64,000 nt of DNA from Natrinema sp. HArc-T2 (lineage in GTDB: Archaea > Halobacteriota > Halobacteria > Halobacteriales > Natrialbaceae): the NCBI RefSeq assembly GCF_041821085.1, contig NZ_JBGUAZ010000003.1:1-64000 (forward strand), given 5' to 3'. The position numbers and the translations under genes were made by a program. Position 1 is the first letter of the stretch. The number at the start of each line of letters is the position of its first letter. A model generated the notes under the pieces. That model was not told where the DNA came from. It saw nothing but the letters and a program-made list of their open reading frames with translations, and searched no databases. Of the stretch, positions 19,953-51,327 are shown piece by piece.

Positions 19953-20099
19953 GAGCTGACATTTTCTAGCGCCAAGCGGATGGTAAAATATAATTATCTT
20001 ATAGATATATGGATTTAATAATTGTGTCTTTATATCGATTCTTCAACTCATATAGTAGAGCTTGAATTTGCGTTTTCAATGTGTGGCTAGTTCTCGAAA

Positions 20100-20600: not shown

Positions 20601-20706
20601 GACGCCTTCTCATCACTCGCGACTAGTGCGTTGTCGCTGCGAGAACTGCTAACAATCCGGGTATTATTTTAAATACCAGAGCAAAATGGACTGAGAACAC
20701 CGTTCT

Positions 20707-22203: not shown

Positions 22204-22294
22204 ATCAGCGCACACTCGCTTGACCAAGTTAATATTCACGAAAACGCAACCGAGAGCGAATGAAATATAACTCGACAGATAACTCTCGCCCGCG

Positions 22295-23032: not shown

Positions 23033-23217
23033 CCTATGAAAGCCTGCTACCCAACCAAACCACGTCTTCGTTCGTATAGTTTTGGGATAGGCTGTAGCAT
23101 TTCCACTAAGAGTAGTCACAATCACTGGCCGGCGCTCTCATAACCTGTGTAACAATCACTCAGGCGGGGGACTTCTTGGAAGAGAGCAGTTGCTAACGCT
23201 AGCAGTAGCCGGCTGCC

Positions 23218-23241
23218 GAGGACCGCCGATCGGCGGTCCTC
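23218..23241. repeat. 24-bp perfect palindrome at the IS110 stop codon
   Basis: The arms are GAGGACCGCCGA and its exact complement, centred on GATC. The palindrome overlaps the TGA of the IS110 transposase on the minus strand. It may act as a terminator or as a structured element end. Confidence 0.75.
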
Positions 23242-24247
23242 AGGCACTCACCCTAGGTGGATCGTAGGCTTCCTTCCGAGTGAGCATATGATGGATAGAG
23301 ACCAGCAGTTTGCGAGCTGTTGCAACGATCGCTATCTGATGGTTCTTCCGGCGTTTGAGCCGAGCATAGAACCGTCCAAGATACAGATCATTACACCGAT
23401 TTACAGCAACGTTCGCACACTGGACGAGGATCCATCGTAAGTCACCGCTTCCGTGCTTCGAGATGTTCCCTTCAGTCCGCGAGTCACCTGACTCGCGGAC
23501 GACTGGATCTAGTCCAGCATAACTCACAACCTGTTTTGCAGCGTCGAACCGGTCAATTTCACCAATCTCGGCTGTGATCAACAAGGATGAATAGAAACTC
23601 ACTCCAGGAATTGTCATCAGTAGCTGCGTCTCCTCCAGAGACGCAGCGCAGCCTTTGATAACATCTTCAAGTCTCTTGATTTGCTCAGTGAGTTTATCAA
23701 TCACTGCGAGGTACGACTCAATCAAGCTCTCTCCGACAACACCCAGCGAGAGATCCTCGCCGGCGAGGAGCTCTCGACCTTCCCTACTGAACGGGCTCCA
23801 CGAATACTCGATTCCATGGTGATCAAGTACAGCGTGAACTTCGTTTTTGAAGTCTGTCCGCTTCTCGACTAGCCGCTTGCGCCCGCGCACAAGTGCGCGG
23901 CGCTCGCGGATCTCATCTGGCGGGACGTAGCTCTCCGCGATCATTCCGGCTCGGCAAAGTTGCGCGAGCAACTTCACATCGAGCCGATCATTTTTGACCT
24001 CGGCACTGCCTATCGCTTTGGTTTGATATGGATCGGCAACTACGACATCAAGATGGTAGCTGAGATTGTCATAGATCGTGTAGTAGTTGATAGTTGCTTC
24101 GATCGCTGCTTCTGATCCAGCGTATTGCTGAGCAAAGTCGTCGAGGTTCGCGTTTTCGACGCGAACCTCTTCGACCACATCACCGTCGTCGTCCAACACA
24201 GCGATGTACGAGTCACGTTTATGAACGTCGATTCCGAGGTAGTACAT
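23240..24247 (-). CDS. IS110-family transposase
   Basis: A 335-residue DEDD recombinase. The N-terminal RuvC-like domain starts YYLGIDVHKRDSYIAV and has AAIEATINYYTIYDNL, VVADPYQTKAIG and VKNDRLDVKLLAQLCRA, which supply the acidic residues. A coiled helix region follows. The C-terminal transposase_20 domain has LLMTIPGVSFYSSLLITAEI, SYAGLDPVVRESG and GNISKHGSGDLRWILVQCA with the catalytic Ser. It is full length. IS110 elements carry a bridge RNA in a non-coding end; the 300 bp before this gene (24248-24550) is the place to look. No element ends were fixed. Confidence 0.93.
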   Translation of the reverse strand: MYYLGIDVHKRDSYIAVLDDDGDVVEEVRVENANLDDFAQQYAGSEAAIEATINYYTIYDNLSYHLDVVVADPYQTKAIGSAEVKNDRLDVKLLAQLCRAGMIAESYVPPDEIRERRALVRGRKRLVEKRTDFKNEVHAVLDHHGIEYSWSPFSREGRELLAGEDLSLGVVGESLIESYLAVIDKLTEQIKRLEDVIKGCAASLEETQLLMTIPGVSFYSSLLITAEIGEIDRFDAAKQVVSYAGLDPVVRESGDSRTEGNISKHGSGDLRWILVQCANVAVNRCNDLYLGRFYARLKRRKNHQIAIVATARKLLVSIHHMLTRKEAYDPPRVSA

Positions 24248-24684
24248 GGCTTCCTCTGAGATGGTAATGCATGGAGGGAGCTACACCTATTCGAGGTCGT
24301 CGCCCGACTGCCTTCGAGTGGTCTGCGTCACTTCTGAATCTTGGCCACGCCGTACGCTGTTCGAATCTGGCGACTCGAGCGAATGCTTCCGAAACGAGTA
24401 TTCAAACCAAACCCCGATCACTCCCGGGCAGTCGGGCTTGGCCTCATGATGGTGCTTCCTTGGCATTTCGGCTAATCAGTGCCACGCGCTTTTCGCGCTG
24501 TCTAGTGTCAGCCTTTGCCACCCCATTCCTTCATCCATGCGTGGGGACTTAGCAGGCTTTCATCCCATCAGTGCTTTCGTAAACCGAGTCGAAAAGCCCT
24601 CAAACAAATCGTTCGAGCAGTTCTCTGATTCAACAACAACGTGCTTCACAAGAGCGAAATATGTAATGGTCTCAAACAGGAGAT
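24248..24684. other. Non-coding region between IS110 and GT2 gene
   Basis: No gene is seen. It contains one arm (24375-24419) of a 45-bp inverted repeat whose partner lies at 25617-25661, and probably the upstream end of the IS110 element. An AGGAG-type site sits just before the ATG at 24685. Confidence 0.5.
24375..24419 (+). repeat. 45-bp inverted repeat, arm 1
   Basis: Begins CTCGAGCGAA and contains CCGAAACGAGTATTCAAACC. It matches the reverse complement of 25617-25661 at 42 of 45 positions. The two arms flank the GT2 gene. Confidence 0.85.
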
Positions 24685-25500
24685 ATGGATACAACCGTTT
24701 CAGTCGTAATGACGACATATGCAGGAGATAACCAATCCGAATTACGAGACTGCTTTACTAGTTTATTAGAACAAGAACGAAAACCCGATGAGGCCATTAT
24801 TGTACGGGGATATAATCTCCCATCTGAACTGGTCGAAGTGATTACTGTGTTCGAAATGAACGCCCCCTTTTCCGTACACGATATTGCTATTGATGAGCAG
24901 GGGCGAGGACATGCTCGAAGGATTGGTGTGGAAAGAGCAACCTCAGAGTTTATTGCTATTATTGATGCTGATGATATAGCGTGTCCAAATCGGTTAAGTC
25001 GACAGTTAGAATATTTCGACGCAAACCCATCCACCGACGTTGTTGGGGGATATATTGGGGAATTTGAAACGGAACCTACCGACATTACATCTGTTCGTGA
25101 AGTGCCGACAAAATCAGATGATATTAAGAGAAGGGCATATTATCGGTGTCCAATTAATCATCCAACAGTTATGTTTCGGCGCGATGCCGTACTTGATGTG
25201 GGAAATTATCGAGAGATGGAATACGGAGAGGATTATGAGCTTTGGTGTCGGCTATTGGCGAATGGTAAGAAGCTCGCTAATATACCTGAAACACTTGTGA
25301 ACGTCCGAGCTACGGAGCTGATAACACGACGTCAAGGGCGCGAAGTTGCCCGTCGTGAAGTCCAATTACAACGTGCTATCGTTCAATCAGGGTTCTATGG
25401 ATGGGGAATCGCATTTGCGAATCTTAGCATTAGAATACCGATTCGCCTCCTTCCGAAACCGTTCTTAAAACGCATCTACCGAAAGTTTCTACGCTCATAA
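24685..25500 (+). CDS. Glycosyltransferase family 2
   Basis: A 271-residue GT-A enzyme that transfers a sugar from a nucleotide donor. It starts TTVSVVMTTYAGDNQSELRD, and the donor-site loop has GRGHARRIGVERATSEFIAI followed by IIDADDIACPNRL, with the DxD-type metal site. Further parts are MFRRDAVLDVGNY and GEDYELWCRLLANGKKL. No membrane helices, so likely cytosolic. It has low GC relative to the AglB-like gene. It is isolated between an IS110 element and an ISH6 end, inside a 45-bp inverted repeat, so it has probably been moved here. Confidence 0.9.
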   Translation: MDTTVSVVMTTYAGDNQSELRDCFTSLLEQERKPDEAIIVRGYNLPSELVEVITVFEMNAPFSVHDIAIDEQGRGHARRIGVERATSEFIAIIDADDIACPNRLSRQLEYFDANPSTDVVGGYIGEFETEPTDITSVREVPTKSDDIKRRAYYRCPINHPTVMFRRDAVLDVGNYREMEYGEDYELWCRLLANGKKLANIPETLVNVRATELITRRQGREVARREVQLQRAIVQSGFYGWGIAFANLSIRIPIRLLPKPFLKRIYRKFLRS

Positions 25501-25503
25501 TTC

Positions 25504-25615
25504 GGTCGTGTCTCAAACTCGTCTAGAGTAGTAACTGACTCCTGTGGAAGCAGGGTCTCCTCTGGTACCTACCCCGAAGTGACCCATGCACGCCGAAATC
25601 AACGTGCGGTTGAGT
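25504..25615 (+). mobile_element. ISH6-family element, left-end fragment
   Basis: Starts GGTCGTGTCTCAAACTC and runs to the first codons of an ISH6 transposase (MHAEINVR from 25586), after which similarity stops. It matches the reverse complement of 4075-4186. Only the element end is left. Confidence 0.75.
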
Positions 25616-25616
25616 A

Positions 25617-25661
25617 ATCGGTATTTGGTTTGAATACTCGTTTCGGAAGCGTTCGCTCGAG
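25617..25661 (-). repeat. 45-bp inverted repeat, arm 2
   Basis: Reverse-complement partner of 24375-24419 with three mismatches. It begins directly where the ISH6 fragment ends, so the break in ISH6 may be tied to the arrival of this repeat. Confidence 0.85.
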
Positions 25662-25720
25662 GCTCTGCTCACTGATGGCTGCCAAACGCACCGACCGTCC
25701 GCCCATACTGACCGGAACGC

Positions 25721-28165
25721 TCACTCTTCAAGCGTGACCGTCGTTCCGTTGAGCACGTCGTCCTCAGAAACGGTCACTGTCCGATTCCCGATCGAATACT
25801 CGCCGGCATACGGCACCGTCACCGTTGCACGGCCATCGTTCCCAACGGTCGCTGTCTGCTCGTAGGTGATTGATTTGCCCGAAACAGCCACCTCCGTCGC
25901 GACAGTTACGTTTGCCCCCGACTCCTCGGGCACTTTGAGCATCGCCCCAGGCACCACTGCGAACGCCGCGACTTCGTCATCAATGTAGATCGCCTGATAG
26001 TGGGTGAGGCCACCGGCCCCGTTGTCACCGGCGCCGCGGTCCTCGAGCAGTTTCGCCTGTGCACTGTCGGCCGGTACGTCGGCGTCGACCTCCTCGACGA
26101 CGACATATCCGACGCGCCCCTCGAACTGGTCGTACCAGCCGTCGGGATCCCTATCAGATTGGAAGTTTCCGTAAGTATTCTGAGCATATCTGTAGCTTTC
26201 CGATTCACCGCTCACCAGATGATTGTACAACCGGTTGTCACCCCACGCGCTCAACACGTAGTTCCCCGGGTAGGTTCGGTTGGTCGCTTCAGCGTGCTCA
26301 TCGATCGCACTCGCTGCTGCGACCTGCGCCTCGCTGTGCGTTACGTCCGCTGTCAGGCCGGGCACGTAGATGAGACTCAATCCGAACACGAGCAGGCCGA
26401 CACCGACCAGATAGCCGATCGCGCGCCCATCCGGCAGCGTAACCGACGGCTCGAGCCGTCGACCGCCGTCGGCGGCGACCGCCCCACGGTCTCGCGTGCC
26501 ACTCCCCACAGTGGGGGCCGACTCACGGAACGGCACCGGGGTTCGCGCCAAGTCGACGACAGAGAGTAGGTGGACGAGTCCAAGCCCGGTGAGAACGGCC
26601 AGCGGAATCGCCAACTGCCCGGCGAACCGCACCTGGACCCCTGCCAGAACGAGCAGGTATCCGGCGTAGGTACCAATGAGCAACCACCCGGGCTCGTACC
26701 GGCGGGCGACCAGCCACGTGACCCAGCCCAGCACAGCGAGTGCGACGTAAAACCCCATCCCGAGCTGATAGAGCGGGCCGAAGATCACGACGTACTCCGT
26801 CGCAAAGAGCGATCCTGTTTCGGTTGGTCCCGCTCGAGCGAACAAATCATTGACTCGAGTCGTCATCTCGGCCCAGTCCTCGGGCCTGAGCCGACGAAAC
26901 GCATAGAGGCCGCCGACCGCAACGAGACCCTCAAGCGCGAACAGCCCCCCGAGATGGCTCTCGAGCCGCCGCCACACCTCGCCGAGCACGACAACAGCGA
27001 CCGCGCCGCCGAGGATTAGCAACGGCGTCGCCGCGACGAACGTGGCATGCCAGCCCCACCGAGAGTGCACCCCGAGCGACAGCGCGCTCCCGACGGCCAG
27101 CCCAGCGAGCAGCGGCAGGTTCGCGAGCACTGGCGACACGCCGGCTCGAGCGTCCAGCGCGACCCGTAGCCCGATGTACGCTGCCAGTGGAAGCAGCAAC
27201 AGCGGTGAGCCACCCCAGGCGTGCGTCCCAGCCGCGATCGAGGCGCCGAAGACCGCAGCGATCAGCCATGTCGTGGGCGAGCGGAGATGATCGACAGTCC
27301 TCTCATGTCGATCAACATCGCCCTCGAGTCGCCGCTGGAGGTCGACGGCAAGCCACGCGAGCGTCACCAGTGTCACGCCGAGCCAGAGATACTGATGGGC
27401 GTTGTGATCGATGAACCCCAGCCCAGTGTAGACCGCGTGGATCGGCGTCACGGCGAAGACGAGCACGGACGCTACCCCGACGCGAACATCGCGCGTGAGC
27501 AGGACGGCAAGCTTGTAGATCACCACCCCGAGCACGACGGAGGCGACGACAGGCAGCCACGCCGCAACCGTCTCGGCTACCGCCTGGCTACCACCAAGCA
27601 GCTCGGCAATAAACCAGTTTGTCGCATGGGTGAACGGTCGCCGGGCGGCAACACCAGCCGGTGGATCCACCAGCACGTCGTAGTCCGTTGGCCCCGACGA
27701 CTTTGCTACGAGTTGTTCCATCCAGTAGCGGAAGTAGTACGGATCGTTCCCCGGCGACACGACGTAGCCCTGCTGGAACACCGACCGGTAGGCCGTCATC
27801 CGGGCCGCAGCCACGACCAGCAGAGCCCCAAACAGTGCCGTCCATTCCCGGGGATCGACGGCGTCCCGGAGCCGCTCGAAATCGACTTCGAACCCACCGC
27901 CGTCCGGCGCCGTCGCCGCCTCGAGGTCCTTGTCCGTCACCACCGCTTCGACGACCGCCGGCTCCGCGACGCGATACGCACCGTCGGTCTTCGTGACGAT
28001 ACCACGTGAGACAAGTTCGCCAAAGGTCCCCGAGTCCAGGGCCACATCGTCGAACGTCCACGGCTCATCGTCGGCGTCGGCCTCCAGGACTGCCTCGAGC
28101 GCGCGCTCGCCGTCGGGGCGGTCATCCAAGAACGTCTGTATCGTCTCGCGGGCGTCGACCGTCAT
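25721..28165 (-). CDS. AglB/STT3-type oligosaccharyltransferase homologue with winged-helix-like N-terminus
   Basis: An 814-residue membrane protein. Residues 1-85 form a small soluble domain (WTFDDVALDSGTFGELVSRG, then IVTKTDGAYRVAEP) that looks like a winged helix. Membrane segments begin near residue 108. SPGNDPYYFRYWMEQL holds the acidic site of the first outer loop in STT3 proteins, and GFIDHNAHQYLWLGV matches the second acidic motif. The WWDYG position reads LSAWGDNRLYN, a divergent form. The C-terminus is a beta-rich outer domain. AglB transfers lipid-linked glycans to Asn in N-x-S/T sites of surface proteins. Canonical AglB lacks the N-terminal domain, so this is a paralogue, perhaps with another acceptor. 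It carries a TATA-like TTTAAGATAA at 28228-28240. Confidence 0.85.
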   Translation of the reverse strand: MTVDARETIQTFLDDRPDGERALEAVLEADADDEPWTFDDVALDSGTFGELVSRGIVTKTDGAYRVAEPAVVEAVVTDKDLEAATAPDGGGFEVDFERLRDAVDPREWTALFGALLVVAAARMTAYRSVFQQGYVVSPGNDPYYFRYWMEQLVAKSSGPTDYDVLVDPPAGVAARRPFTHATNWFIAELLGGSQAVAETVAAWLPVVASVVLGVVIYKLAVLLTRDVRVGVASVLVFAVTPIHAVYTGLGFIDHNAHQYLWLGVTLVTLAWLAVDLQRRLEGDVDRHERTVDHLRSPTTWLIAAVFGASIAAGTHAWGGSPLLLLPLAAYIGLRVALDARAGVSPVLANLPLLAGLAVGSALSLGVHSRWGWHATFVAATPLLILGGAVAVVVLGEVWRRLESHLGGLFALEGLVAVGGLYAFRRLRPEDWAEMTTRVNDLFARAGPTETGSLFATEYVVIFGPLYQLGMGFYVALAVLGWVTWLVARRYEPGWLLIGTYAGYLLVLAGVQVRFAGQLAIPLAVLTGLGLVHLLSVVDLARTPVPFRESAPTVGSGTRDRGAVAADGGRRLEPSVTLPDGRAIGYLVGVGLLVFGLSLIYVPGLTADVTHSEAQVAAASAIDEHAEATNRTYPGNYVLSAWGDNRLYNHLVSGESESYRYAQNTYGNFQSDRDPDGWYDQFEGRVGYVVVEEVDADVPADSAQAKLLEDRGAGDNGAGGLTHYQAIYIDDEVAAFAVVPGAMLKVPEESGANVTVATEVAVSGKSITYEQTATVGNDGRATVTVPYAGEYSIGNRTVTVSEDDVLNGTTVTLEE

Positions 28166-30417: not shown

Positions 30418-31318
30418 ACACCGAGAAAAACACAGCCTCGAGAGAGGCTACATCTCTCAGCACACAGCACCCACACATCACGCAGGCGGTTGGTTAGGAG
30501 GTTGGGTAGCTATAGGTGGGGCTCTCGAGCGGTCCTCGGCGGTCACTTCCGAATACGGTCTCGAGCATCCTACCGGAGACGACAGTTGTCCATAGACGTC
30601 TTGACTGTATCCTTCTATTTGTGGACGGAGTGACAACCGTACTTGCTTATCACGCAAGTATGAGGATGAACGGCACCGCTCGTCGCGGTCGCGAGCGTTG
30701 CAGCCGCGGCCACGCAGGCCGCCATGGAGGGATGAGGCGACGGCGGTACGAATTGGCAGGTCGCGGCGGCCACGCTTCCTCACTGGTGTCAGTCGCGACG
30801 CTGGCTCACGCTGGCGTGCGCTCGTCGATCAGCCACACTTGATCCGCAGTGATCGCGCCGTCGTCGTGGTCGGCGAAAAACGACGCCGTGGCGTCCGATG
30901 AGTGTACGGCGGCATCATGTTTTTGTTCCAAAAGAGTATCGTCCGACTCGCACTGTCACCACACTTGCACGCCCAGCATTCCATAAGCGTCACAGATCAC
31001 CGCGTCGTTTCCCTTGAGGCGACCCCGCCGCAATCTCCTCTCACAAAACATACACGTTCGTTCCTCAAGGGCTGCAAGCACAGGGTGGCTGCCTACAGCG
31101 CCGTCCGGTAATTGCATCTCGTTGGCACCATGTCATGATCTGCTATAGTCTTTTTTTTTTGATGACTTGATATTTATCTGTTATTTCTCTCTTGACACCA
31201 ATCACAATCACCTCAGACTGGTGCTTCTGTCTACCAATCATGTTACCAGTCAGCACGCCACATCGTTCGATCCCGGAATTTAACGGTTGGCTGGTGCGCC
31301 TTCGTCGTTCGGTTCTGC
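30418..31318. other. 900-bp region without a convincing gene
   Basis: All open frames here have poor codon use or low-complexity translations. An imperfect hairpin, ACTTGC TTATCAC GCAAGT, lies at about 30640-30660, and a T-run of about 12 at 31149-31160. It separates two operons and may hold decayed sequence, a small RNA or a replication or partition site. Nothing can be assigned firmly. Confidence 0.4.
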
Positions 31319-31332
31319 CAAAAAATATAAGT
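31319..31332 (+). promoter_or_regulatory. TATA-like box of the tubulin-like operon
   Basis: CCAAAAAATATAAGT lies about 45 nt before the ATG at 31371, which predicts transcription from about 31352 and a leader of some 18 nt. It is the only clear promoter for the three coupled genes that follow. Confidence 0.55.
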
Positions 31333-31370
31333 ATTACTGAAATAACGTTCCAGTGAAAACATAGAATCAA

Positions 31371-34300
31371 ATGAATTTACCAGGAAGAATATTTTCAGTC
31401 GGTGGTGCCGGAAAAGAGATCGCTCTTGAGTTGCTCGAGTCGGAATGGGTACTCCGGGAGATCCTCCAGCCACGACCGAATCCACAAACGGTACGAGTGA
31501 CGGTTCTCGATACGGCCGAAGAGGAAGAAAACAGCGACCGCGAGCGGATCGCAGAGATCCGCGAGCAGGTTGCAACCCTGAAATCGGAACTTCGAGAGAC
31601 GGGAACCGGTCGACCCGGTGATGTCACGATCGAGTATAAGATGATCACGCGAAACATCCAGCTCAACGATCAGAACGATCTGATCGGAGAGGCCGCTGTA
31701 CCCCGCATCACGGCCGGGAACGGCATGGATGAAGACGACTGGTGGGTCGACGAACAACACATCAACGAGAACCTCGATTTTGCGACCGGCGTCGTCCGGA
31801 AACGCGGACTGGGGAAGGCGATGTACTACAAAGCCTACGCCGAGGACGACGAGCTATCGACGTACATCGACCTCCCCGACAAAGGGAAAGTCGCCGTCCT
31901 CGCCGGTCTCGGTGGTGGGACCGGGTCCGGAATCGTGATCGACCTCGCGCGTCACTTACAGCAGAAACAGCGGACGGCGGAGATCACACTGTTTGGCATT
32001 CTCCCGAACCACACTGAGGGGATCCGCGAAAACGCGAACGCCTACGCCGCCCTCTCAGAACTCGAGTATCTCAACCTCATTAATGAACCCGCGTTCAAGG
32101 ATCGGATCCTGCTTCCGATCGACCCGACCGGGTTCGACGGGAAAGGGGGGAACAAAATACAGAACAGCCAACTCCTTCAGGAGTTTGACGAGGCGATCGT
32201 CTACCTGATGGCCGCCTACTACAACACCGTCGGGACTGAGGACCCGTTCGCGGACTCGCCGACGTACGCACCGTTTACCATCGGAATTCCGCAGATCCTC
32301 CGATACAACGTCGAGGCGATCAACGAGGGGCGGACCGCGCTCCGTGACATCCTCACCGCCAAGGAAGAAGCCGTCCAAGCCGAACGCGACATCTACGCAC
32401 AGATCGAGCGGTTCCTCGACGATCAGTACGGAGGCCCGAGCGGCGGTGGACTCCGAGATCTCGACCGTGCAGACCTGAACGGGCGACTCGACGACTTCCG
32501 ATCGCTTCTCGATTTCGAGCTGTTCAACGAACTCGAGTACGAGTCTGTCTCGATCTTCTCGGAGATCGTCTCCGACGCCGAGGCGGAAAGCGAGGATGTC
32601 TCGGAAAAGATCGACATCATCTCAGGCTCGCTTCGCGCGGTCGATACGGCCGGCCAGCAGGCCGGGCGGTTCGTCGACAACATCGACGAGACCCTCGCCG
32701 AAGTACTTGAGGCGGACCTGAAGGCCATCGTCCAGCGCCACCGGCTGCTCGTCCAGAAACAATCGATCGACGACAGCCGCGTCAGGGACGCCGTCGAGTA
32801 CCTGATCAACAGCGACGACGGCAGCGGCAACGCCGGCGTGAAGCTCAATCGGCTCGAGACGCAGCTCAGCGACATCGACGACCAGCGTCGCCGCCTCGAG
32901 GACGAACTCGAAGAGACCGTCGACGAACTGGAGACGCTCCAGCAACAGCAGGCCGACGAGGTCGACCGGAAGGTCCGCGACTGGGAACGCGATGTCAAGC
33001 CGGTACTCGACCAGTACCAGCAGATCGATATCGACGCCATCGAGAGCGAGCTCGCCGCGCTCACGCGGGAACTCGAGCAATTCCGCTCGGAGATCGTCAA
33101 CGCCAGAAACGAGGACGATGTCGATCAGCTCACCAGTCAGGCGATCAGCCAGCAGCTCGACGACCTCGAGACCGTGCTCGACCGCGTCGGAATCGACTTC
33201 CACGAGCAACGCACAGACATCCAAACGTCGTTGACCGCACTGAAGGAAACGCGGAAGGCGTTCCTGACGCTGAACACCGAAGAGGGAACGCTCGAGAAAC
33301 TCACGCCGTGGTCGGGCAAGACTGAGCAGGCAAAAGAGGAAGCGAACCGGAACTACCGGGTCCAAAAGAACAAACTCGACGATCGCGGCGTCTTCAGCGT
33401 CGGTCCGGCGGGCGGGTCGTTCTCCGCCGACGTCGAGTACGACCCCGAGTCGGTCATCACGGAGCTTCGCGATCGCGAACGCGACCTTGAGGGCGACATT
33501 GTCGAGGAACTGAGTCATCGACTCGACGAGTTCGAGTCGGATCTCCGCCGCGAGTTCGAGTCGGAACTCGACCATGGCGGGGAGATCGAACGCCTCCGCG
33601 CGATCGCCCAGTCGGCGTTCGAGGCCGAGATCGAGGGGACTGACGAACTGCAGGACCGGAAGGCCGAACTCGAGGCGGAACTCGAGGACCTGGAAGCGCA
33701 GTACGAGACCTACGAGCGGACGGTCGACCTGTTCGAGGAACTCAACCAGCGGCGCGAGGCGTACGCGAACCGGATCGCCGAGTTCAACCGCCAGCGGAGC
33801 GAGTACGACGACTCCGACTCGTCGACTCGAACGGTCGCGACCGAGCGCGACGAGTCGGTCTACGTCAAGAACATCAAGCCCAACGATGTCTTCCGGGCGA
33901 CCGGCGATACGGCGATCGGCAACAGCGACCTGTTCGCCAGCCGGGAGGAGAACCAGCGCGTCCACAGCGCGCTCGATGACCTCATCGAGAACGTGTTCAA
34001 CGAGCAGTACTCCGGGATCAAAAAGCGAAGCTTCAGCAAGGGCCGACAGCGGTACAACGACATCAAAGTCCGCGTCGGCGTGTTGAGTCAGGCGGTTCAT
34101 CAGATCGAACCGAACGCGCTGGACTTTGAGAACCGGTTCAACAGCGCGTTCGATCTCGGTGCGAGCGGGAACCGGGTTGAGAACCCGTACACGAGCTGGC
34201 AACACGATATCGGCGACAGCTGGGACATCGGGGTCAGCGCGTTCATCGACGGGATCTTCCTGGACAACCTGCGGAAAATGGTCCAGGCCGACGGCTACCG

Positions 34301-34604
34301 CTCGGGCTACGAAAAACGGCGGTCCGAGCTGGACGACGACATCCTCATTCACCACAACCACGGCCTCGAGGACGGCTTCTACGTCCGTCGCAGTGAGATG
34401 CTCAACATGGAAAGCGACGAAGACGTCGGTTTCTACCTGCAGGACGAGCCCGATATCGTACAGGGGCTGTTGGACGAGTACGTCGAGCGCATCCCCGTCT
34501 TCGACGACGACGATGACGGCGACGACGGCGGGGACGACAGGGCGCCCGCCAACGAACGAGCGGGCGCGGGCGAGTCGTACGAATACAGCGGAGGTGTAAA
34601 ATGA
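31371..34604 (+). CDS. Large tubulin/FtsZ-fold protein (Tubulin_2-like)
   Basis: A 1077-residue protein. It begins with a glycine-rich nucleotide-fold start, RIFSVGGAGKEIALELLE, like the N-terminus of FtsZ. At residues 177-195 it reads VLAGLGGGTGSGIVIDLAR, the tubulin/FtsZ signature GGGTGSG that contacts GTP phosphates. Further fold parts are ITLFGILPNH and NANAYAALSELEYL. Residues about 480-620 and 760-820 are long coiled coils, and the end is very acidic (DDDDDGDDGGDD). This fits the poorly studied large tubulin-like family of prokaryotes, which I place from the signature alone. The stop overlaps the membrane GTPase start by 4 nt. It is likely cytosolic, may form GTP-dependent filaments, and may dock to the membrane through its partners. 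Confidence 0.85.
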   Translation: MNLPGRIFSVGGAGKEIALELLESEWVLREILQPRPNPQTVRVTVLDTAEEEENSDRERIAEIREQVATLKSELRETGTGRPGDVTIEYKMITRNIQLNDQNDLIGEAAVPRITAGNGMDEDDWWVDEQHINENLDFATGVVRKRGLGKAMYYKAYAEDDELSTYIDLPDKGKVAVLAGLGGGTGSGIVIDLARHLQQKQRTAEITLFGILPNHTEGIRENANAYAALSELEYLNLINEPAFKDRILLPIDPTGFDGKGGNKIQNSQLLQEFDEAIVYLMAAYYNTVGTEDPFADSPTYAPFTIGIPQILRYNVEAINEGRTALRDILTAKEEAVQAERDIYAQIERFLDDQYGGPSGGGLRDLDRADLNGRLDDFRSLLDFELFNELEYESVSIFSEIVSDAEAESEDVSEKIDIISGSLRAVDTAGQQAGRFVDNIDETLAEVLEADLKAIVQRHRLLVQKQSIDDSRVRDAVEYLINSDDGSGNAGVKLNRLETQLSDIDDQRRRLEDELEETVDELETLQQQQADEVDRKVRDWERDVKPVLDQYQQIDIDAIESELAALTRELEQFRSEIVNARNEDDVDQLTSQAISQQLDDLETVLDRVGIDFHEQRTDIQTSLTALKETRKAFLTLNTEEGTLEKLTPWSGKTEQAKEEANRNYRVQKNKLDDRGVFSVGPAGGSFSADVEYDPESVITELRDRERDLEGDIVEELSHRLDEFESDLRREFESELDHGGEIERLRAIAQSAFEAEIEGTDELQDRKAELEAELEDLEAQYETYERTVDLFEELNQRREAYANRIAEFNRQRSEYDDSDSSTRTVATERDESVYVKNIKPNDVFRATGDTAIGNSDLFASREENQRVHSALDDLIENVFNEQYSGIKKRSFSKGRQRYNDIKVRVGVLSQAVHQIEPNALDFENRFNSAFDLGASGNRVENPYTSWQHDIGDSWDIGVSAFIDGIFLDNLRKMVQADGYRSGYEKRRSELDDDILIHHNHGLEDGFYVRRSEMLNMESDEDVGFYLQDEPDIVQGLLDEYVERIPVFDDDDDGDDGGDDRAPANERAGAGESYEYSGGVK

Positions 34605-36055
34605 TCGGCGCCACGATCGCCTCGCTGCGGCAGCATCAGGAGAAGTTGTCGCTGTTCGGCTACTTCGTCGTGATGCTCTTGCTGACGCTTCCGCTGGCAA
34701 CGATGCTCGGGTCGGCCTACGAGGGCGGGAAGCTCACACGGGAGCTCATCAACGTCCATCTCCTCGTCGACGTGATCGACCTCGAGGGCGTGAGCGTGTT
34801 CTTCCTCGGTATCTTCGTGGGACTGCTCGTCCTCCTGACGATCGATCCGAAGAAACGCTGGCAGGGGTATCTCCTCTGGATCGGACTCGTGATTTCGCTG
34901 CTCGGGCTCCAGTCGATGGGGCTTTTCATTCCGAACATCGAGTTCACCGCGTCGACGAACCTCACATGGCTCGGCGTCGGGGTCTTGCTCGGGCTCTTTC
35001 TCGGCGGCGGCCGAAAGCTGCTCCGGACCCGGACCGCCGAAGCGCTCGAGTTCCGCCGAGCGGCCAAAGGGATCTACTACATCGTCACCCTGCTGATACT
35101 CGGCTCGCTGATCGAGACGCATCTGATCTATCCGCAGCTGCTCGAGGTCTCGTCTAGCGGCGTCGAGGTGGTGGGGACGAACGGTGACTTCGCCGTCGAA
35201 AGCGATGGGCTCGTCCGGAACGCGGTCCTCAGCGGGATCTTCGTGTTTACCGTTAGACGGTTCATCCAGTACGACGCCGAGGAGGACTTCTTTGTCCTCG
35301 GGCCGCGTGCGTCCGGCAAAAGCCTGTTTCTCATCGGCGCGTATCTCGAGGCCCTGAACCGCGGCCAGGAGGACGAGGCGACACAACAGACGCCGCTCCA
35401 GCCGAGCCAGGACCTGATGGAAATGGTCGAAAACCTAGACCAGCGCGCCGAGGGATGGCTCATCGAGGCAACCGGTCGCGGCGAGATCAAGGACCTCAAG
35501 TTCCAGTACGTCCACGGCTCGACGTTCCCGAAGAACGTGAATGTCTCGAGCATCGACTACGCGGGGGAATATCTGGGTCGGTTACCGGATGCCCTCTCAG
35601 GCGCGGTCACCGACGACGAGGCCGACAACACGCTGCTACGGCTGGCGGAGGAGGTCGAAGAGGCAGACACCCTCATTCTGCTGGTCGACCTCGAACGGCT
35701 CGTCAGCAATGAACCGCTCGAGATCTCAGAATACTTCAGCATCCTACAGGCCGCCAACGATATGGGCGTGTTCATCGTCGCGACGAAAGCTGACGTCTTC
35801 GTCGAGGATTTCCGAGCGGAGCACGGGATCGAACCACACCTCGCGTACGACGACTTCAAGGACTACGTCGGGCAGCGGCTTCGACAGAGCAAGGAGGTCG
35901 ATAGCCTCATTCGGCAGACTGCGGGTGCGGAGATCCATCCAGTCTACTACCAGACGACCGTCAACGACAATGGCGACCGCGTGCCGATGCGTGACGAGAC
36001 GGGATCGGTGATGACGATCGGCTTCGATCGACTGCTGGACGAACTTGGACGGTGA
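34601..36055 (+). CDS. Polytopic membrane protein with C-terminal GTPase domain
   Basis: A 484-residue protein. About five or six hydrophobic segments lie in residues 18-220 (e.g. LFGYFVVMLLLTLPLATML; GVSVFFLGIFVGLLVLLTI). A P-loop GTPase domain follows: G1 GPRASGKS at 234-241, a DxAG switch (SSIDYAGEYLG) with Asp near 319, DTLILLVDLERLV near 356-368, and the G4 motif TKAD at 395-398 in FIVATKADVF. This domain layout resembles GTPases that accompany tubulin-like proteins in conflict-type gene sets. It overlaps the tubulin-like gene by 4 nt, and the next gene follows after 5 nt. The GTPase side should face the cytosol with the tubulin-like protein. Confidence 0.83.
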   Translation: MIGATIASLRQHQEKLSLFGYFVVMLLLTLPLATMLGSAYEGGKLTRELINVHLLVDVIDLEGVSVFFLGIFVGLLVLLTIDPKKRWQGYLLWIGLVISLLGLQSMGLFIPNIEFTASTNLTWLGVGVLLGLFLGGGRKLLRTRTAEALEFRRAAKGIYYIVTLLILGSLIETHLIYPQLLEVSSSGVEVVGTNGDFAVESDGLVRNAVLSGIFVFTVRRFIQYDAEEDFFVLGPRASGKSLFLIGAYLEALNRGQEDEATQQTPLQPSQDLMEMVENLDQRAEGWLIEATGRGEIKDLKFQYVHGSTFPKNVNVSSIDYAGEYLGRLPDALSGAVTDDEADNTLLRLAEEVEEADTLILLVDLERLVSNEPLEISEYFSILQAANDMGVFIVATKADVFVEDFRAEHGIEPHLAYDDFKDYVGQRLRQSKEVDSLIRQTAGAEIHPVYYQTTVNDNGDRVPMRDETGSVMTIGFDRLLDELGR

Positions 36056-36060
36056 GACTA

Positions 36061-37374
36061 ATGACGGAGTTAACAATATACGATTCACACGGCAATCCGT
36101 ACGGCGAGTCAGGACGGGGACGACCGGACGAGCGGATAGAGAACTTCTTTTTCGGAGGAGTCAAGCTGTATCTTAAGAGAGGTTCCCAGACCGAACTCGT
36201 TGTGTTCTTCCGTGCCCGCGAGTCGAACGTCGGTCGAGCTGAACAATTCTACGCCGTCTACAGGACTCGCCAAACGAGCAACCTGTTCGAGCAGTTCAAA
36301 TCCGATCTCCGCCATCGGGTCGAGACTGAACACGGTATGTCTCTCGAGACCTCGTCCGACGACGTCGCGGTGTACTCCGCGCTCGGGGAGGGACACTCGT
36401 CCGTTCCAGGTTCGGAGTTCAACCACGAACTTATCTCGAGCCTGCTGCGGTCGGGGAACCGGTTGCGGTTCGGCGTCTCCTCCCCGAGGAAAGCACTCGC
36501 GCTGTGTTCGAAGTTCCTTCAGGGATCGGCACAGCGGGTCGCGATCGCCGACAACACTGACATCGATGAACTCGCAAATTGCGACCTCGCTGTCGAGGTC
36601 GGCAGCCATCGGGGACTCGAACCGCTGGGCGATACCCAGCGCCTGATGGACGAACAGCGCCGCAGGATGGAGGGAAAACTTGTCAACGAGAAGGTCTCGA
36701 CGATCAAAGGGGAGATCCAGGATCTGCGGAGCAAAACGAGCAAGAGTGATACACAGATCAGGAATCGGATCAAACGCGAGCTCTCTATCTTCGAGACACC
36801 GCCACCACCGTCGAACAACGACAGTCCGTTCGACGCACTTTCGAAAGTGAGTCGCACCCAGAAGATCGCCGTGGGTGCCATCGGTGTCGTCGTCCTGATA
36901 TCCCTGATTGCGGTTGTCGCCGCGGGCGTACTCGGGGCCCCGCTCCCGTTCGTCGGACCGCTCGGCTTCCTCGGCGACGGCTCCGAGTCGGGTGCAGACG
37001 GCTCAGACACCGAACTCGAGATCACTACCGTTGGCGGTGTCGCGGTCGATAATCTCACAGAAGAGAATGGAACAAAACAGGTCCAACTGTTGAACGGTAC
37101 TCTGAACGTCTCCGGGACGACGAACCAGGACGTAGTTCGGGCGACATTCAACCCGACTGGAAGGAACGATACCATCACAGCTCGCGAGACCGTACAAAAC
37201 GAGTCGTTCGATGTGACGCTGTCCGACCTCGAGCCTGAGGAAGGTGAGCTGAAAATAGAAGCCGGAACCGACAACGACTCCACATTCGAATCGGAGGCCA
37301 ACGAGTCGAAGACAATTAATCTCATCGCCGGAGGCCAAGACGGAGACGGAACACAAGACGAGGATACCACGTGA
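36061..37374 (+). CDS. Single-span membrane protein with soluble N-domain and glycosylatable ectodomain
   Basis: A 437-residue protein starting at the ATG at 36061 (MTELTIYDSHGNPYGESGRG). Residues 1-245 are soluble and mixed alpha/beta, with a coiled stretch (MDEQRRRMEGKLVNEKVSTI) just before the membrane. One helix lies at about 269-291 (IAVGAIGVVVLISLIAVVAA). Outside is a beta-like domain of about 145 residues with several N-x-S/T sites (NLT, NGT, NVS, NES) and an acidic tail. I do not recognise the N-domain family. Its tight coupling to the tubulin-like and GTPase genes suggests it links the cytosolic filament side to the cell surface, perhaps as sensor or anchor. Confidence 0.75.
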   Translation: MTELTIYDSHGNPYGESGRGRPDERIENFFFGGVKLYLKRGSQTELVVFFRARESNVGRAEQFYAVYRTRQTSNLFEQFKSDLRHRVETEHGMSLETSSDDVAVYSALGEGHSSVPGSEFNHELISSLLRSGNRLRFGVSSPRKALALCSKFLQGSAQRVAIADNTDIDELANCDLAVEVGSHRGLEPLGDTQRLMDEQRRRMEGKLVNEKVSTIKGEIQDLRSKTSKSDTQIRNRIKRELSIFETPPPPSNNDSPFDALSKVSRTQKIAVGAIGVVVLISLIAVVAAGVLGAPLPFVGPLGFLGDGSESGADGSDTELEITTVGGVAVDNLTEENGTKQVQLLNGTLNVSGTTNQDVVRATFNPTGRNDTITARETVQNESFDVTLSDLEPEEGELKIEAGTDNDSTFESEANESKTINLIAGGQDGDGTQDEDTT

Positions 37375-41824: not shown

Positions 41825-42973
41825 CTATCGCCTAAGAATTCCTCGCAGCCGACGAACGAAAGACTTCGACTGCGTCTCTCTCGAGGATTCGGTCTCCTCT
41901 TCGCTAGTCACTGGCCTCCCCTCATACGTCTCGAGTCGCCGCTCAAGCCGTTCGATCCGCGCAGTCTTTGCCTCCAGTTCTTTCTCGAGAGACGTCGTCT
42001 GCTTTCGAAGCAGGGAGACCCTCTCTTTGAGGTACACATGCTCACGATCTCGCGACGACCCGACTCTCTGAGCCTCTACCTCACTCTCAGACGGCTCGTA
42101 GAACTCAGAGGTGTGTGCAATTGCTCGAGCAATCGTCTTCTCACCATACGTCGAACCATCCGCGTAGTGTTCCTCTCCCCACTTCGGACGGTCCAACTTA
42201 GACCGCCGAAACAATCGATCCATCTGTCCGGCGTGACCACCAGTCCAGAACGCAAGCAAACAACACAGCGCCATATCCGCTTCCGACTGGCTCGTATACC
42301 CGACAGTCGACCCGTTCCAGAGACGTTCGAACTTATCCCCATTCGCCGCATTTCGAGCCTTCTCGAGTAACTCGTTGTCCGAGAGCCGAGCTTTCGAACC
42401 CGGCTCCGACGCAGGACCCTCACAAGCATCATCACCCTCCTCCCGAACGTACGCTGAATGAATCTCATCGAGTTCGCGTTGCCGAGATTCGATTTGCGTT
42501 GGCGTACCCGAGACGTGCTCGCCAGTGACGGTGAAGTATCGGGCGTGGTCGTACATCTCGATGTGGCCACGTCGATTGCGACCTGCAGGAAGTTCACCAC
42601 GTATCAAGACGTGATAGCCAGTCCCCGATGGCGAGACTTCCGTATACGAATCCAGCCGACCAACGATTGCCTTCGCTTGCTCAGTTGGTTGCCCAGTATC
42701 TGGGTCACGACAGTCGTCCAGATCAATCCCAACAAATGGATCTGACTTCGTGAACACGAACCCCAGCCCATCGACCGCAGTGGAGCCCGATTCCACACAC
42801 TCGAGAGCAGTCTCGAAGTCACACCATGTCCCCTCGTCTGTTGTCGACGCGAATCCTGTCGTCTGCGGATCAACCGGAACCTTCGTCGTCTCCCCGTTTC
42901 GCTCTGCTCGCCTCCAGCAGATCCACTGATCTCGAGTACACAGCGCCTCCGGGATAGTCATCTCATCACCCAT
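41825..42973 (-). CDS. Primase-polymerase-like protein (AEP superfamily, NrS-1-like)
   Basis: A 382-residue protein from the ATG at 42973 (MGDEMTIPEAL). Residues about 10-180 form an archaeo-eukaryotic primase type domain: LCTRDQWICWRRAERNGETT, then DGLGFVFTKSDPFVGIDLDD with the catalytic DxD, SYTEVSPSGTGYHVLIRGEL with the s-x-H motif, and GHIEMYDHARYFTVTGEH. Next is the helix bundle LLEKARNAANGDKFERLWNG, QSEADMALCCLLAFWTGG and MDRLFRRSKLDRPKW. The C-terminus is a coiled coil. Such enzymes prime or copy DNA of mobile elements. The gene starts 5 nt after the VirB4-like stop and ends the conjugation-like operon. Confidence 0.85.
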   Translation of the reverse strand: MGDEMTIPEALCTRDQWICWRRAERNGETTKVPVDPQTTGFASTTDEGTWCDFETALECVESGSTAVDGLGFVFTKSDPFVGIDLDDCRDPDTGQPTEQAKAIVGRLDSYTEVSPSGTGYHVLIRGELPAGRNRRGHIEMYDHARYFTVTGEHVSGTPTQIESRQRELDEIHSAYVREEGDDACEGPASEPGSKARLSDNELLEKARNAANGDKFERLWNGSTVGYTSQSEADMALCCLLAFWTGGHAGQMDRLFRRSKLDRPKWGEEHYADGSTYGEKTIARAIAHTSEFYEPSESEVEAQRVGSSRDREHVYLKERVSLLRKQTTSLEKELEAKTARIERLERRLETYEGRPVTSEEETESSRETQSKSFVRRLRGILRR

Positions 42974-42978
42974 ATCTC

Positions 42979-45096
42979 TCAATCCGAAAGCCCAAGCGAG
43001 CTCTGACCACCATTCGTCACAGAGCCAGAAACACTACCAGACTGGCCCGGTAACTCAGATCGAGACTGTTCCTTCGGGTCGAAATCGATCACGGTCGTCT
43101 CGTCGTCCATCGCACGGACTTCGATGCCACGCCATTCACCGTCGACACCGACGAGCGCCTCAGAATACCCTGTCCGATCGTTCCCAGGAACAGCCTCCTG
43201 GACGAAGCGCATCTGTGCCGAATTGAGTCCGAACTCGTTGGCCCATTCACGATCCATTCCATCGAGATGGTGGAACTGCTTGATCGCACATTGGTCGATG
43301 ATTGCCTCCGACTCTGGATGCTGGAAAAACTCATCAACAGTCTGCGTGACAAGCCGAATCGAGAGGTTGTGATGGCGATGATGTCGGAAGACGATCTCGA
43401 GATACTCGAGACTCGCCGCATCCTGCATGATATACCGTGCTTCGTCGATGACGAAGACGACCTCCTTGTCCGTCTCCTTTGCGCGCTCGTAGACCAGCGA
43501 GATCAGCAACTGCATGATCAAGCTCGTACTCCCGCCGAGACTCCCCTCCTGTTGGGCGAGATCTAGATAGATCACCTTCTCGTCGCGGATATCGAACGCC
43601 GTCTCCCGACCTAAGTTCTCGTAGCGACCACCCACGGCAAACGGACGCAACTGATCAATGAGCCACGTTGCGTCCTCTCGAATCTTCGTCGTCTCTTTGT
43701 CCGTCCGGACAACGTACTCCGTGGGCGTCTCCACCATCTTCTCGAGGATGTCGAGTACGTCCTGCATCGTCGGACTCTCATTGTGATGAGTTGCGATATC
43801 GTCGGTGATTCCGTTCCTCGCATACGCCTTCTCGATCGCCGTCTCCAGCGTAGTCCGTCGATCCCCGAGTGAAATCCCACGGGTCGCAAAGTAGTTCGAC
43901 AAGAAACTCATCACGCTATCGAGCTTCTCCCGATACGGACTCGCATCCTCGCCCATCGCCTGCTGGACACGCTCGGGCGTGGGCTTGATCTCGAGGGGAT
44001 TCAATCCCATATCACCGCCAATCGTGATTCGCTCGCCACCGACCGCCTCAGCGACACCAGCCCAGTTGTTCAATGGCTCGAGGATGATTCCAATACGATC
44101 CTCGCTCTGCTCGATCGACCGAACGAAATTCTGCTTTGAGCCGAAGGATTTGCCAGAGCCAGGATCGCCGATCGTGAACATCGCATAGCCATTCTCTCGA
44201 GCAAAGGGATCGATCACGACCGGACTCTGATTCTTCCAGTGAGCGCCGAATTCGACACCACCGTCCTCGAGAATCGTCGCATTGTGCGGCGACGCAAGCA
44301 ACGCACCGATAGCACCACCTAACGCCGTCGCCTCTCGACCAAACGGATTCGGTCCCACCGGTGCTGCAGCCTGAATTGCCAGATCCTGCTTACAGATCGC
44401 TGTTTTCGGCGAGAGACCCGCTGGCTGTTCACGAAGCCGACTGCGAACCGTCCGAACATCCTCACGCAACTCATCACGGGAATCCGCACGCACCGTGATG
44501 AACATCCCCTGGTCGAAGACACGACTTCCGTTCTCGACGCTTTTGTACGTCGAGAGCGCCTCGTTCGCGCGTTCCTGTAGATAGCTCCCACGGACAGTTC
44601 GCTCGAGGTCTGCATCAGCCTGGAGATCGTCGGCAGCATGCTGGAGTTCGTCGCGAGCCTTCTGCTGGCTCTTCGGTGTGATATGCACCGTCAGATCGAA
44701 CTCGATATCCGTGAGCTCGAAGAGTTCCGTCAGATAGCCGTCTTTCGGATAATCGGGATAATCAGCAATGTAGAGCGTCGATGTCCAGTGATCACCAACA
44801 CGGGCAGTCCGTGTATCCCACTCGATCGCTGCCGGTGCGATGACGTGCTGGTGATTCTCTGCGATATCGTCGAGGATCTCTCCTTCATCGATGCCGTTAT
44901 CCACGGTTGTCTCCTCGAGGAGATCAGCTAACTCGACCTCTTCAATCTCTTCAGTTCGCCAGTAGTCCCACGCAATCTTCACGAGAAGCGTGAGCAACGC
45001 TGTCACCCCAACGTAGAAAGCAAGCCCTGCTCGAGTTCCCGTATCAGGAAGCAAACTTTGCACCTGACCCGCAACCAAAATAACCGAATCGATCAC
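42979..45096 (-). CDS. VirB4/TraC-like conjugation ATPase
   Basis: A 705-residue ATPase. The GTG start at 45096 (VIDSVILVAGQVQSLL) overlaps the upstream stop; longer forms in that frame are basic and implausible. A membrane helix comes first (GLAFYVGVTALLTLLVKIAW), then a regulatory part. The P-loop GDPGSGKS is at about 310-317 (FTIGDPGSGKSFGSK), and the Walker B region is KEVVFVIDEARYIMQD, followed by LSIRLVTQTVDEFF. VirB4 powers type IV secretion channels at the membrane. It overlaps the gene before it by 4 nt and is followed by the primase-like gene. The whole set is read as one minus-strand operon. Confidence 0.9.
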   Translation of the reverse strand: MIDSVILVAGQVQSLLPDTGTRAGLAFYVGVTALLTLLVKIAWDYWRTEEIEEVELADLLEETTVDNGIDEGEILDDIAENHQHVIAPAAIEWDTRTARVGDHWTSTLYIADYPDYPKDGYLTELFELTDIEFDLTVHITPKSQQKARDELQHAADDLQADADLERTVRGSYLQERANEALSTYKSVENGSRVFDQGMFITVRADSRDELREDVRTVRSRLREQPAGLSPKTAICKQDLAIQAAAPVGPNPFGREATALGGAIGALLASPHNATILEDGGVEFGAHWKNQSPVVIDPFARENGYAMFTIGDPGSGKSFGSKQNFVRSIEQSEDRIGIILEPLNNWAGVAEAVGGERITIGGDMGLNPLEIKPTPERVQQAMGEDASPYREKLDSVMSFLSNYFATRGISLGDRRTTLETAIEKAYARNGITDDIATHHNESPTMQDVLDILEKMVETPTEYVVRTDKETTKIREDATWLIDQLRPFAVGGRYENLGRETAFDIRDEKVIYLDLAQQEGSLGGSTSLIMQLLISLVYERAKETDKEVVFVIDEARYIMQDAASLEYLEIVFRHHRHHNLSIRLVTQTVDEFFQHPESEAIIDQCAIKQFHHLDGMDREWANEFGLNSAQMRFVQEAVPGNDRTGYSEALVGVDGEWRGIEVRAMDDETTVIDFDPKEQSRSELPGQSGSVSGSVTNGGQSSLGLSD

Positions 45097-46184
45097 TGGT
45101 CGGCCCTCCGTTGGTGATCCACCGCTGGATGGTCGCGAATCGCGTCTGCGCCATCGTCGTACTCGTGTTCCTCTCCGTTCCAGAAGTCCATCGAGAGAAC
45201 GAACAACTCGACCGTCGTAAGCCGACGAGCAGACCATCCGGACACCTTCTGGATGAACTCCGTCTGGAGGCTGTGACATCGGTTTTCAAGCTTCTCGAAC
45301 ATGGCCGCTCGAATCTCTGCGTCAGTCATATCATTGCGCCGGGTCACGAACGGGTTGAACAGAAACCCAACTACAGGAAATGAGGTGAGTTTCTCTGCAG
45401 GGGAACGCTCGTCCTGATAGCGATCATAGACCTCGAACGGGTCGACTTCGACACCGATGAAATAGCGGATCTGCTGGGCACCCTCGAGATCCCGCGGTCG
45501 TTGCTCGCGATACTCCTCAAGTAACCCTCGAAAAATCGGGTTCTCCTCAACATCACTATCAGAGAGTCGCCCATCGATTCGTTCGATCAGTCTCTCCACC
45601 GGGAACGAACGAGTCGTCGCGTGGAACTTGAGTGAAAAATCGAGCTCCTTATTCGCGAACTCCTCACCGAGTTGCTGGATCTGTGCCCAATCACCAGACA
45701 TCGCGAAGTCCATGTTCCCAGGATCGATCTCGAGGTAGGCCTCCATCACTCCGTCCGAACGTTCAATCGCACCAATACCGGGCCATGCACGCTTGATGTT
45801 CGTGAGATCCTGCGTTCGCTCGTCCGGTTTGAACGGCGTGTAACTTACGAGCCCACCATCAACACCCGACTCACCAGACTCGACTGCACTGTACGTGACT
45901 CGAGGCCGTTTGCAGTAGTAGCGATACACATCACCCAACCACGTCGACGCGGGAAGATGACTCGGTGATGCATAGACGACTGCACCACCTGCGACAATCC
46001 CCAGGAGCACGAACGGCAAGATCGCTCCCTCGAGCCCAATCAACCCGCCAACGAGAAGCCCCGCGATCGGGAAGCCAAGGAGAACGTATACGTCCCCCTC
46101 CTCGATATTCAGGATCGGGATTCGACTCTCTTCGCCCAGTTCATCCATGATTCGCCGGCCAGCTGCACCGCTTTCTTGTGTCAC
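45093..46184 (-). CDS. Conjugation-associated membrane protein (PrgI/VirB3-like N-terminus)
   Basis: A 363-residue protein. It starts with ILNIEEGDVYVLLGFPIAGL and two closely spaced helices (residues about 33-75), the layout of PrgI/VirB3 proteins which sit before VirB4 in archaeal and Gram-positive systems. The rest is a soluble domain: DGVMEAYLEIDPGNMDFAMS, VERLIERIDGRLSDSDVEEN, AAMFEKLENRCHSLQTEFIQ. That domain resembles the N-terminal part often found in VirB4 itself, so VirB4 may be split over two genes here. It overlaps its neighbours by 4 nt on both sides. Confidence 0.72.
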   Translation of the reverse strand: MTQESGAAGRRIMDELGEESRIPILNIEEGDVYVLLGFPIAGLLVGGLIGLEGAILPFVLLGIVAGGAVVYASPSHLPASTWLGDVYRYYCKRPRVTYSAVESGESGVDGGLVSYTPFKPDERTQDLTNIKRAWPGIGAIERSDGVMEAYLEIDPGNMDFAMSGDWAQIQQLGEEFANKELDFSLKFHATTRSFPVERLIERIDGRLSDSDVEENPIFRGLLEEYREQRPRDLEGAQQIRYFIGVEVDPFEVYDRYQDERSPAEKLTSFPVVGFLFNPFVTRRNDMTDAEIRAAMFEKLENRCHSLQTEFIQKVSGWSARRLTTVELFVLSMDFWNGEEHEYDDGADAIRDHPAVDHQRRADQ

Positions 46185-47323: not shown

Positions 47324-47541
47324 TATGCAACCCTCTCAAGTTCGATCACACAGCCAGCATCCTCGAGCTCAACGACGCCATCACCACTCTCGAAATCCAC
47401 ACTCGAGGCGGGTACAACACACTCGAGTCTCCAATCTCTCTCGAGAGCAGTACAACTCAAACCAATCAACTCAGCAGCACCCCTCCATCGAAGTGTTCGA
47501 AGAACAATACCTCTCCACACCATTCCTACCTCATCAATCAT
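47323..47541 (-). CDS. 72-residue operon protein, unknown
   Basis: The frame gives MIDEVGMVWRGIVLRTLRWR, then GAAELIGLSCTALERDWRLE and a beta-like tail with GDGVVELEDAGCVIELERV. It overlaps the large surface protein gene by 4 nt, and its stop shares one base with the start of the VirB6-like gene. This continuous coupling in an operon is the best support for it as a true gene. No membrane helix or known motif is seen. Confidence 0.65.
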   Translation of the reverse strand: MIDEVGMVWRGIVLRTLRWRGAAELIGLSCTALERDWRLECVVPASSVDFESGDGVVELEDAGCVIELERVA

Positions 47542-49238: not shown

Positions 49239-49275
49239 TAGGGCCTCTGACTCAAGGACTGTTCACCGATCGACA

Positions 49276-49695: not shown

Positions 49696-49738
49696 TTGGT
49701 GAATTTCAGACCTACTGAGAAATCTCGTGAGAACCAAC

Positions 49739-49897
49739 GGATTGGTTCAGAAATTTATTCATTAGATCGTCAAATTCACTCGCTGATGACTGAGTATATA
49801 TCTTGTGTATTATATTGGATCGGAATTATAGTGCATGGATGAAGAACTGTTTTTGTATCGGCCATGAAAATATCCGTCTGAAACTGAGTCTACTACG
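49739..49897. promoter_or_regulatory. Upstream region of the conjugation operon
   Basis: AT-rich sequence with TATA-like motifs on both strands (GTATATATCT near 49793; AATAAATTTC on the minus strand near 49755). It probably carries the promoter of the minus-strand operon. Confidence 0.35.
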
Positions 49898-51306: not shown

Positions 51307-51327
51307 AGGGGTTCTTGCTCACTCGGC

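Follow-up and report, generated by a model that had tools for sequence, protein, structure and literature searches.

An FtsZ-like 1 operon of haloarchaea that may link a tubulin-family scaffold to the cell surface

The window analyzed here, a stretch of 64,000 nucleotides from Natrinema sp. HArc-T2 (contig NZ_JBGUAZ010000003.1), contains three closely packed genes on the forward strand. They encode a giant tubulin-like protein (T), a polytopic membrane GTPase (G) and a single-span protein (E), with the following features:

31371-34604, 34601-36055 and 36061-37374, all (+): the T-G-E operon, genes T, G and E respectively (open reading frames at these positions)
31318-31335 (+): putative TATA-like promoter element of the operon (read by eye, aaaaaatataag)
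31371-34604 (+): T, giant tubulin-like protein of the FtsZ-like 1/Tubulin_2 family, 1077 aa (open reading frame, PF13809 and PF00091, AlphaFold2 model vs. CetZ1)
31911-31931 (+): T4 GTP-binding loop GGGTGSG, T residues 181-187 (sequence)
32235-32252 (+): T7-like acidic loop EDPFAD, T residues 289-294, past helix H7 (element order in the model; putative catalytic role)
32307-33941 (+): predicted coiled-coil insertion in the tubulin core, T residues ~313-857 (model helices, length in homologues, short paralogues)
33942-34496 (+): C-terminal part predicted to complete the tubulin activation domain, T residues ~858-1042 (model strands, VIA alignment)
34506-34601 (+): acidic, disordered C-terminal tail of T, residues 1046-1077 (pLDDT <50)
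34601-36055 (+): G (484 aa), polytopic membrane protein whose P-loop GTPase domain lies in the cytosol (motifs; sub-threshold DO-GTPase2 match)
36061-37374 (+): E, with inner domain 1-225, membrane span ~265-291 and beta-sandwich ectodomain 319-422 (AlphaFold2 model, fold match, sequons, homologues 3′ of G)

The T and G reading frames overlap by 4 nt (ATGA) and 5 nt separate G from E; by eye, the intergenic space within T-G-E is too small, or nearly so, to hold another promoter. The TATA-like stretch aaaaaatataag, also picked out by eye, lies about 45 nt 5′ of the T start codon. E has 437 aa when read from the ATG at 36061 and 440 aa from the GTG at 36052. The gene features and spacing proposed in an earlier, sequence-only reading of this DNA were borne out by the open reading frames and motif positions. 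Indeed, homologues of T, G and E occur in the same order and with matching spacing in dozens of genomes, indicating that the arrangement goes beyond chance.

T is matched by two Pfam families, Tubulin_2 (PF13809; E 2e-12, 47.5 bits, cut-off 27) and Tubulin (PF00091; 35.5 bits, cut-off 33). Its GTP loop lies in the context GLGGGTGSG, and G181, G182, G183, G185 and G187 are invariant among 32 homologues. The Pfam matches and the structural model confirm the description given earlier of a tubulin-like protein of 1077 residues with GGGTGSG at 181-187, long coiled coils (here seen as long predicted helices) and an acidic tail. T is a member of the FtsZ-like 1 (FtsZl1) family, named in 2010 by Makarova and Koonin, whose type member is Huta_2051 (1051 aa) and beside which membrane GTPases are found in archaea (PMC2875224). 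Like FtsZl1 proteins, T is of the order of 1050 aa, with an N-terminal FtsZ-like GTP-binding domain bearing GGGTG[ST]G, a long coiled coil and a further C-terminal domain, and it shares an operon with a divergent, membrane-associated GTPase, since G adjoins T in the window and its relatives. A vWA gene is present in the majority of the operons predicted in 2010 (PMC2875224), whereas T-G-E has neither a vWA nor a protein kinase gene, but includes the single-span E; a vWA gene near T was seen in one haloarchaeal plasmid, with no homologue at the other loci. The family is thus older and better described than was implied when such proteins were called little studied, and we found no experimental studies of it in the open-access literature.

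By sequence comparison, T was significantly similar to FtsZ and CetZ just over residues ~163-232. Profile comparison of its C-terminal half with FtsZ/CetZ gave no match, so the assignment of the activation half rests on the structural model. The AlphaFold2 model, built from 32 homologues, had a mean pLDDT of 84 and a pTM of 0.63. Foldseek matched it to FtsZ, CetZ and tubulins, and VIA-align 2 placed CetZ1 (4b46) first (Z 23.4, rmsd 3.7 Å), with 316 of 330 CetZ1 residues aligned across model residues 2-985; FtsZ and tubulin aligned with the model likewise. The CetZ chain being almost wholly covered, the alignment must draw on T residues flanking the coiled coil to left and right, which would make the coiled coil an insertion inside the tubulin core. 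By element order, the modeled strands at 302-312, 899-905, 940-945 and 952-962 can be read as S7-S10 of the activation half, and the coiled coil, with helices at 488-551 and 758-814, would be inserted after S7. T is therefore predicted to fold into a complete tubulin core, with both the GTP-binding and the activation half, and the fold predicted around GGGTGSG is that of a tubulin, as the motif had suggested.

The 2010 study did not locate the elements after helix H5 in FtsZl1, and its reviewers raised the question of whether these proteins hold the tubulin parts needed for filaments (PMC2875224). Our model departs from that picture, in that the C-terminal domain would be the second half of the tubulin core and the coiled coil an insertion within it. 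Helix H7 of T (LLQEFDEAIVYLMAAYYN) is followed by EDPFAD, reminiscent of the FtsZ T7 loop. Most close homologues have this motif at 289-294; across T homologues the T7-like position retains an acidic residue, with the acids drifting out of strict alignment in the distant ones. CetZ proteins, the tubulin-like cytoskeletal proteins of haloarchaea, provide the closest solved fold to the T model but, unlike T, have about 360 aa and lack a coiled-coil arm and a dedicated membrane GTPase or surface partner.

The insertion equivalent to T 313-857 measures 542-547 aa in 25 of the 32 homologues. Two Halorubrum paralogues of T (L191:3931-5613 and L192:6155-7843; 560-562 aa) are without the coiled coil and join T profile positions 1-320 and 815-1040 directly. 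Their GTP loop is degenerate (GGATSG) and both genomes also hold a full-length T; the arm-less form is possibly a non-GTP-binding regulator or cap. With a whole tubulin fold predicted for T, filament formation is plausible, and most characterized members of the tubulin superfamily polymerize. The near-constant arm would also suit a ruler or tether, and the T7 region varies in divergent members, so that T could instead be a GTP-switched, non-polymerizing tether in which one or two tubulin cores and a long arm couple membrane-bound G to another structure and no treadmilling filaments form. We think this quite improbable, given the habit of the superfamily, the complete tubulin core that T appears to have kept and its invariant GTP loop.

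G has hydrophobic segments towards its N-terminus and the motifs GPRASGKS (residue 234), DYAGE (319) and TKAD (395), in agreement with the polytopic protein with GPRASGKS, DxAG and TKAD that had been described. Within DYAGE, which contains a Walker B glutamate, D319, G322 and E323 are invariant among 21 close homologues. G reached the Pfam gathering score of neither DO-GTPase1 nor DO-GTPase2 (18.8 bits for the latter, cut-off 27), and similarity to DO-GTPase2 at an E-value of 0.01 or better was seen in 7 of 41 G homologues (best 3e-5). A search of the PDB with the G profile gave no match. No relatives of G were found among viral contigs. A contig scan for G relied on a narrow alignment, a wide one being too diverse.

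E has one strong membrane span (~265-291, numbered from the ATG). Its outer part carries 8 N-glycosylation sequons in 150 residues, compared to 2.0 in shuffled sequences, and its inner part 1 in 268; the corresponding figures for 40 E homologues are 3.03 (outer) and 0.52 (inner) sequons per 100 aa. These data uphold the proposal of a single-span protein with a soluble inner and a glycosylatable outer part. In the AlphaFold2 model (pLDDT 83), residues 1-225 form an inner domain predicted with confidence, followed by a membrane helix and then by an ectodomain with a beta-sandwich fold. No Pfam family matched the E of the window, and the Foldseek and VIA matches to the whole model all fell on the ectodomain, which resembles Ig/FN3-like sandwiches (best Z about 10), a common fold that is uninformative on function. 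We take the element order of the inner domain (strand, helix, three strands, helix) to recall longin/roadblock folds. The outer part ranges from 7 to 451 residues among E homologues, and in many species it bears CarboxypepD_reg, SpaA, SdrD-B or PEGA repeats. The inner domains of haloarchaeal and methanogen E proteins could be aligned over 176 columns, with modest support (hhalign probability 70, E 4e-5). An E relative with a tandemly duplicated inner domain (L173:10030-12495) is encoded in a genome of the size of that of Methanosarcina acetivorans.

The three genes recur together widely, as the earlier interpretation required. In 26 of 40 haloarchaeal loci, T-G-E are contiguous and on one strand; the others comprise T-G (1), T with a second, divergent G (5) and G without a nearby T (8). 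T is present in 28 of 32 named loci (Haloterrigena, Natrarchaeobius, Halorubrum, Haloarcula, Haloferax, Halogranum and others), and the Methanohalobium plasmid pMETEV01 carries the whole trio. Methanogens have an extended form, X-T-G-E, in which relatives of G and of single-span E come in succession after T, and X, found 5′ of T in 13 methanogen-type loci, is a conserved signal-peptide/membrane protein; several of these loci also encode a protein with four PEGA domains downstream of the operon. Homologue distances were strongly correlated for all three pairs (Mantel r 0.98 for T-G, 0.94 for T-E and 0.92 for G-E; 0/2000 permutations), indicating that T, G and E co-evolve and are inherited together as a unit, with shared species history accounting for part of the correlation. 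Homologues of G occur in 45 of 292 Halobacteria genomes. Across the phylum, T is present in 48 of 393 genomes; by genus, the counts are 12 of 31 in that of genome G597 (which by its size may be M. acetivorans), 16 of 52 in the Halorubrum genus and 1 of 29 in the genus of the window. Such a patchy distribution points to a dispensable system and is also compatible with a role in conflict.

In seven genomes G is present while T is missing altogether, the T search yielding just FtsZ/CetZ-level matches. Four of these are Natrialbaceae that form a single clade in the G tree (support 100/100), sister to the clade of the window (99/97) and nested among T-bearing lineages. The simplest reading, subject to rooting, is a single loss of T with G-E kept, and the GTPase motifs are intact in both aligned members of the four. 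G-E would then be the constant pair and T optional, which fits a scheme with G-E as the switch and T as the output that it controls.

Some divergent T loci (L063, L065, L070, L072 and L074) have two GTPases around T, one of them shorter (458-487 aa), which recalls the paired 'double' GTPases of bacteria. Genes for Hsp70 and DnaJ-like proteins lie near divergent T or G genes (L033:14-1690, L187:11784-13850, L071:5506-6750 and L065:14406-16466), resembling bacterial GTPase-centric systems. In 2020, Kaur et al. described those systems as conflict systems that combine DO-GTPases with GAP1, FNIII proteins and tubulins bearing coiled coils, and that also occur in a few archaea (PMC7159879). T-G-E shares with them the Walker B glutamate of G, a tubulin with a coiled coil and a downstream membrane protein with an Ig/FN3-like outer domain. 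The trio could accordingly be a defence system, in which invasion is detected at the membrane by E or G and sets off the GTPase, with T then assembling in order to trap or kill, along the lines proposed for bacterial systems with DO-GTPases, tubulins and Hsp70. The DxxGE glutamate and sub-threshold DO-GTPase matches of G, the coiled-coil tubulins beside DO-GTPases in bacteria (PMC7159879), the patchy and partly plasmid-borne distribution of T and the divergent subset with paired GTPases, Hsp70 or DnaJ-like genes are all consistent with this. However, G scores below the DO-GTPase cut-off, there is a single GTPase at the window locus, and vWA, Hsp70 and effector domains are all absent there. GAP1-N2 (PF20013) was found in none of four genomes (that of the window and three trio-bearing relatives), whereas the Corynebacterium control was positive. 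PADLOC gave no real match (G and E drew none, and what T drew was coiled-coil-type noise), the three-gene make-up is fixed and has no variable effector, and the methanogen partners are conserved surface proteins. On balance, we consider defence unlikely, while keeping it as a serious competitor.

The trio had also been proposed to be carried by a mobile element. Its presence in 1 of 29 genomes of the genus, its relatives on plasmids and the conjugation-type element that adjoins it favor mobility in part. That element (41825-56806) encodes TrbL/VirB6 (PF19590, 701 bits), a TraG-like P-loop ATPase, a TrwB/HerA-like protein of 1263 aa and an NrS-1-type primase-polymerase protein. In the neighborhood comparison, no gene family beyond T, G and E was shared by more than four loci; since the neighbors vary in this way, we rejected permanent membership of the trio in the conjugation-type element. 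T-G-E is an accessory module that moves and is tied to no single carrier. Two IS240-type copies in direct orientation (22301-23029 and 51977-52705) bracket 29 kb containing the trio and an aglB gene. A composite transposon was set aside, because the copies share just 94.5% identity and inspection by eye showed no target duplication at their outer ends. Surface-sugar genes lie around the trio (9048-28165 and 58429-62912), encoding sulfatases, glycosyltransferases and a polysaccharide flippase, with the gene for the AglB oligosaccharyltransferase at 25721-28165.

Plasmid-borne relatives, and a weak sequence match between the GTP-binding half of T and TubZ, bring to mind plasmid or chromosome partition of the TubZ/TubR kind. 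The operon, however, holds T, G and E alone: T is accompanied by a membrane GTPase and a surface protein, and no DNA-binding adaptor is present. In many species the contigs are also chromosome-sized, and a nearby gene for a 119-aa wHTH protein occurs in no other locus. We regard partition as highly improbable. No iteron array was obvious in the sequence around the operon. Among the three functions suggested from the sequence (defence, DNA partition or cell-surface signaling), coupling to the cell surface fits best; partition found no support and defence is kept as the rival discussed above. The description of the system as membrane-linked is supported by polytopic G and single-span E.

We thus favor, as a proposition that we hold to be evenly poised, that T-G-E is a self-contained, horizontally spread FtsZ-like 1 operon linking a tubulin-family scaffold to the cell surface. 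What the methanogen operons add to the trio are surface or membrane proteins (X at 13 loci, PEGA-repeat proteins downstream in several), the arm is near-constant in length, arm-less paralogues exist naturally and the order of the trio is fixed, with overlaps or short gaps; against this, some E proteins are nearly without an ectodomain (7-22 residues). We infer that T polymerizes, that G contacts both T and E, and that the system acts at the cell surface. In such a mechanism, T would bind GTP through its complete tubulin core, from the activation half of which the ~545-residue coiled-coil arm would erupt, and would probably assemble head to tail in a GTP-dependent manner, by analogy with other tubulins; the arm may project from the polymer or tether it. 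G would be a membrane-embedded GTPase switch at the inner face. E would cross the membrane once, with its inner domain available to G, T or both and its variable, glycosylated ectodomain held in the surface layer. G-E may then sense the envelope or take hold of it, and recruit T or let it go, leading to local shaping of the membrane and surface. In its most specific form, which is speculative and in our view doubtful, T would form filaments with arms of fixed length, and G in the membrane together with membrane-crossing E would connect this polymer to the surface layer of the archaeon, as a GTP-controlled, integrin-like link from a tubulin cytoskeleton to the exterior of a prokaryotic cell.

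T adds a new member to a family that is widespread in bacteria and archaea. What is new here is the predicted complete tubulin core with a near-constant inserted arm, the recognition of E, one half of which faces the surface, as a third partner, a G-E core that outlives T and a methanogen operon with additional surface proteins. The model of a complete core, the near-constant arm and the arm-less paralogues make the question of filaments experimentally tractable, and the operon lies close to tractable organisms, with relatives in Methanosarcina, Haloferax and Haloarcula species. If the surface link is correct, T-G-E would represent a case in prokaryotes of a tubulin connected through the membrane with the cell surface.
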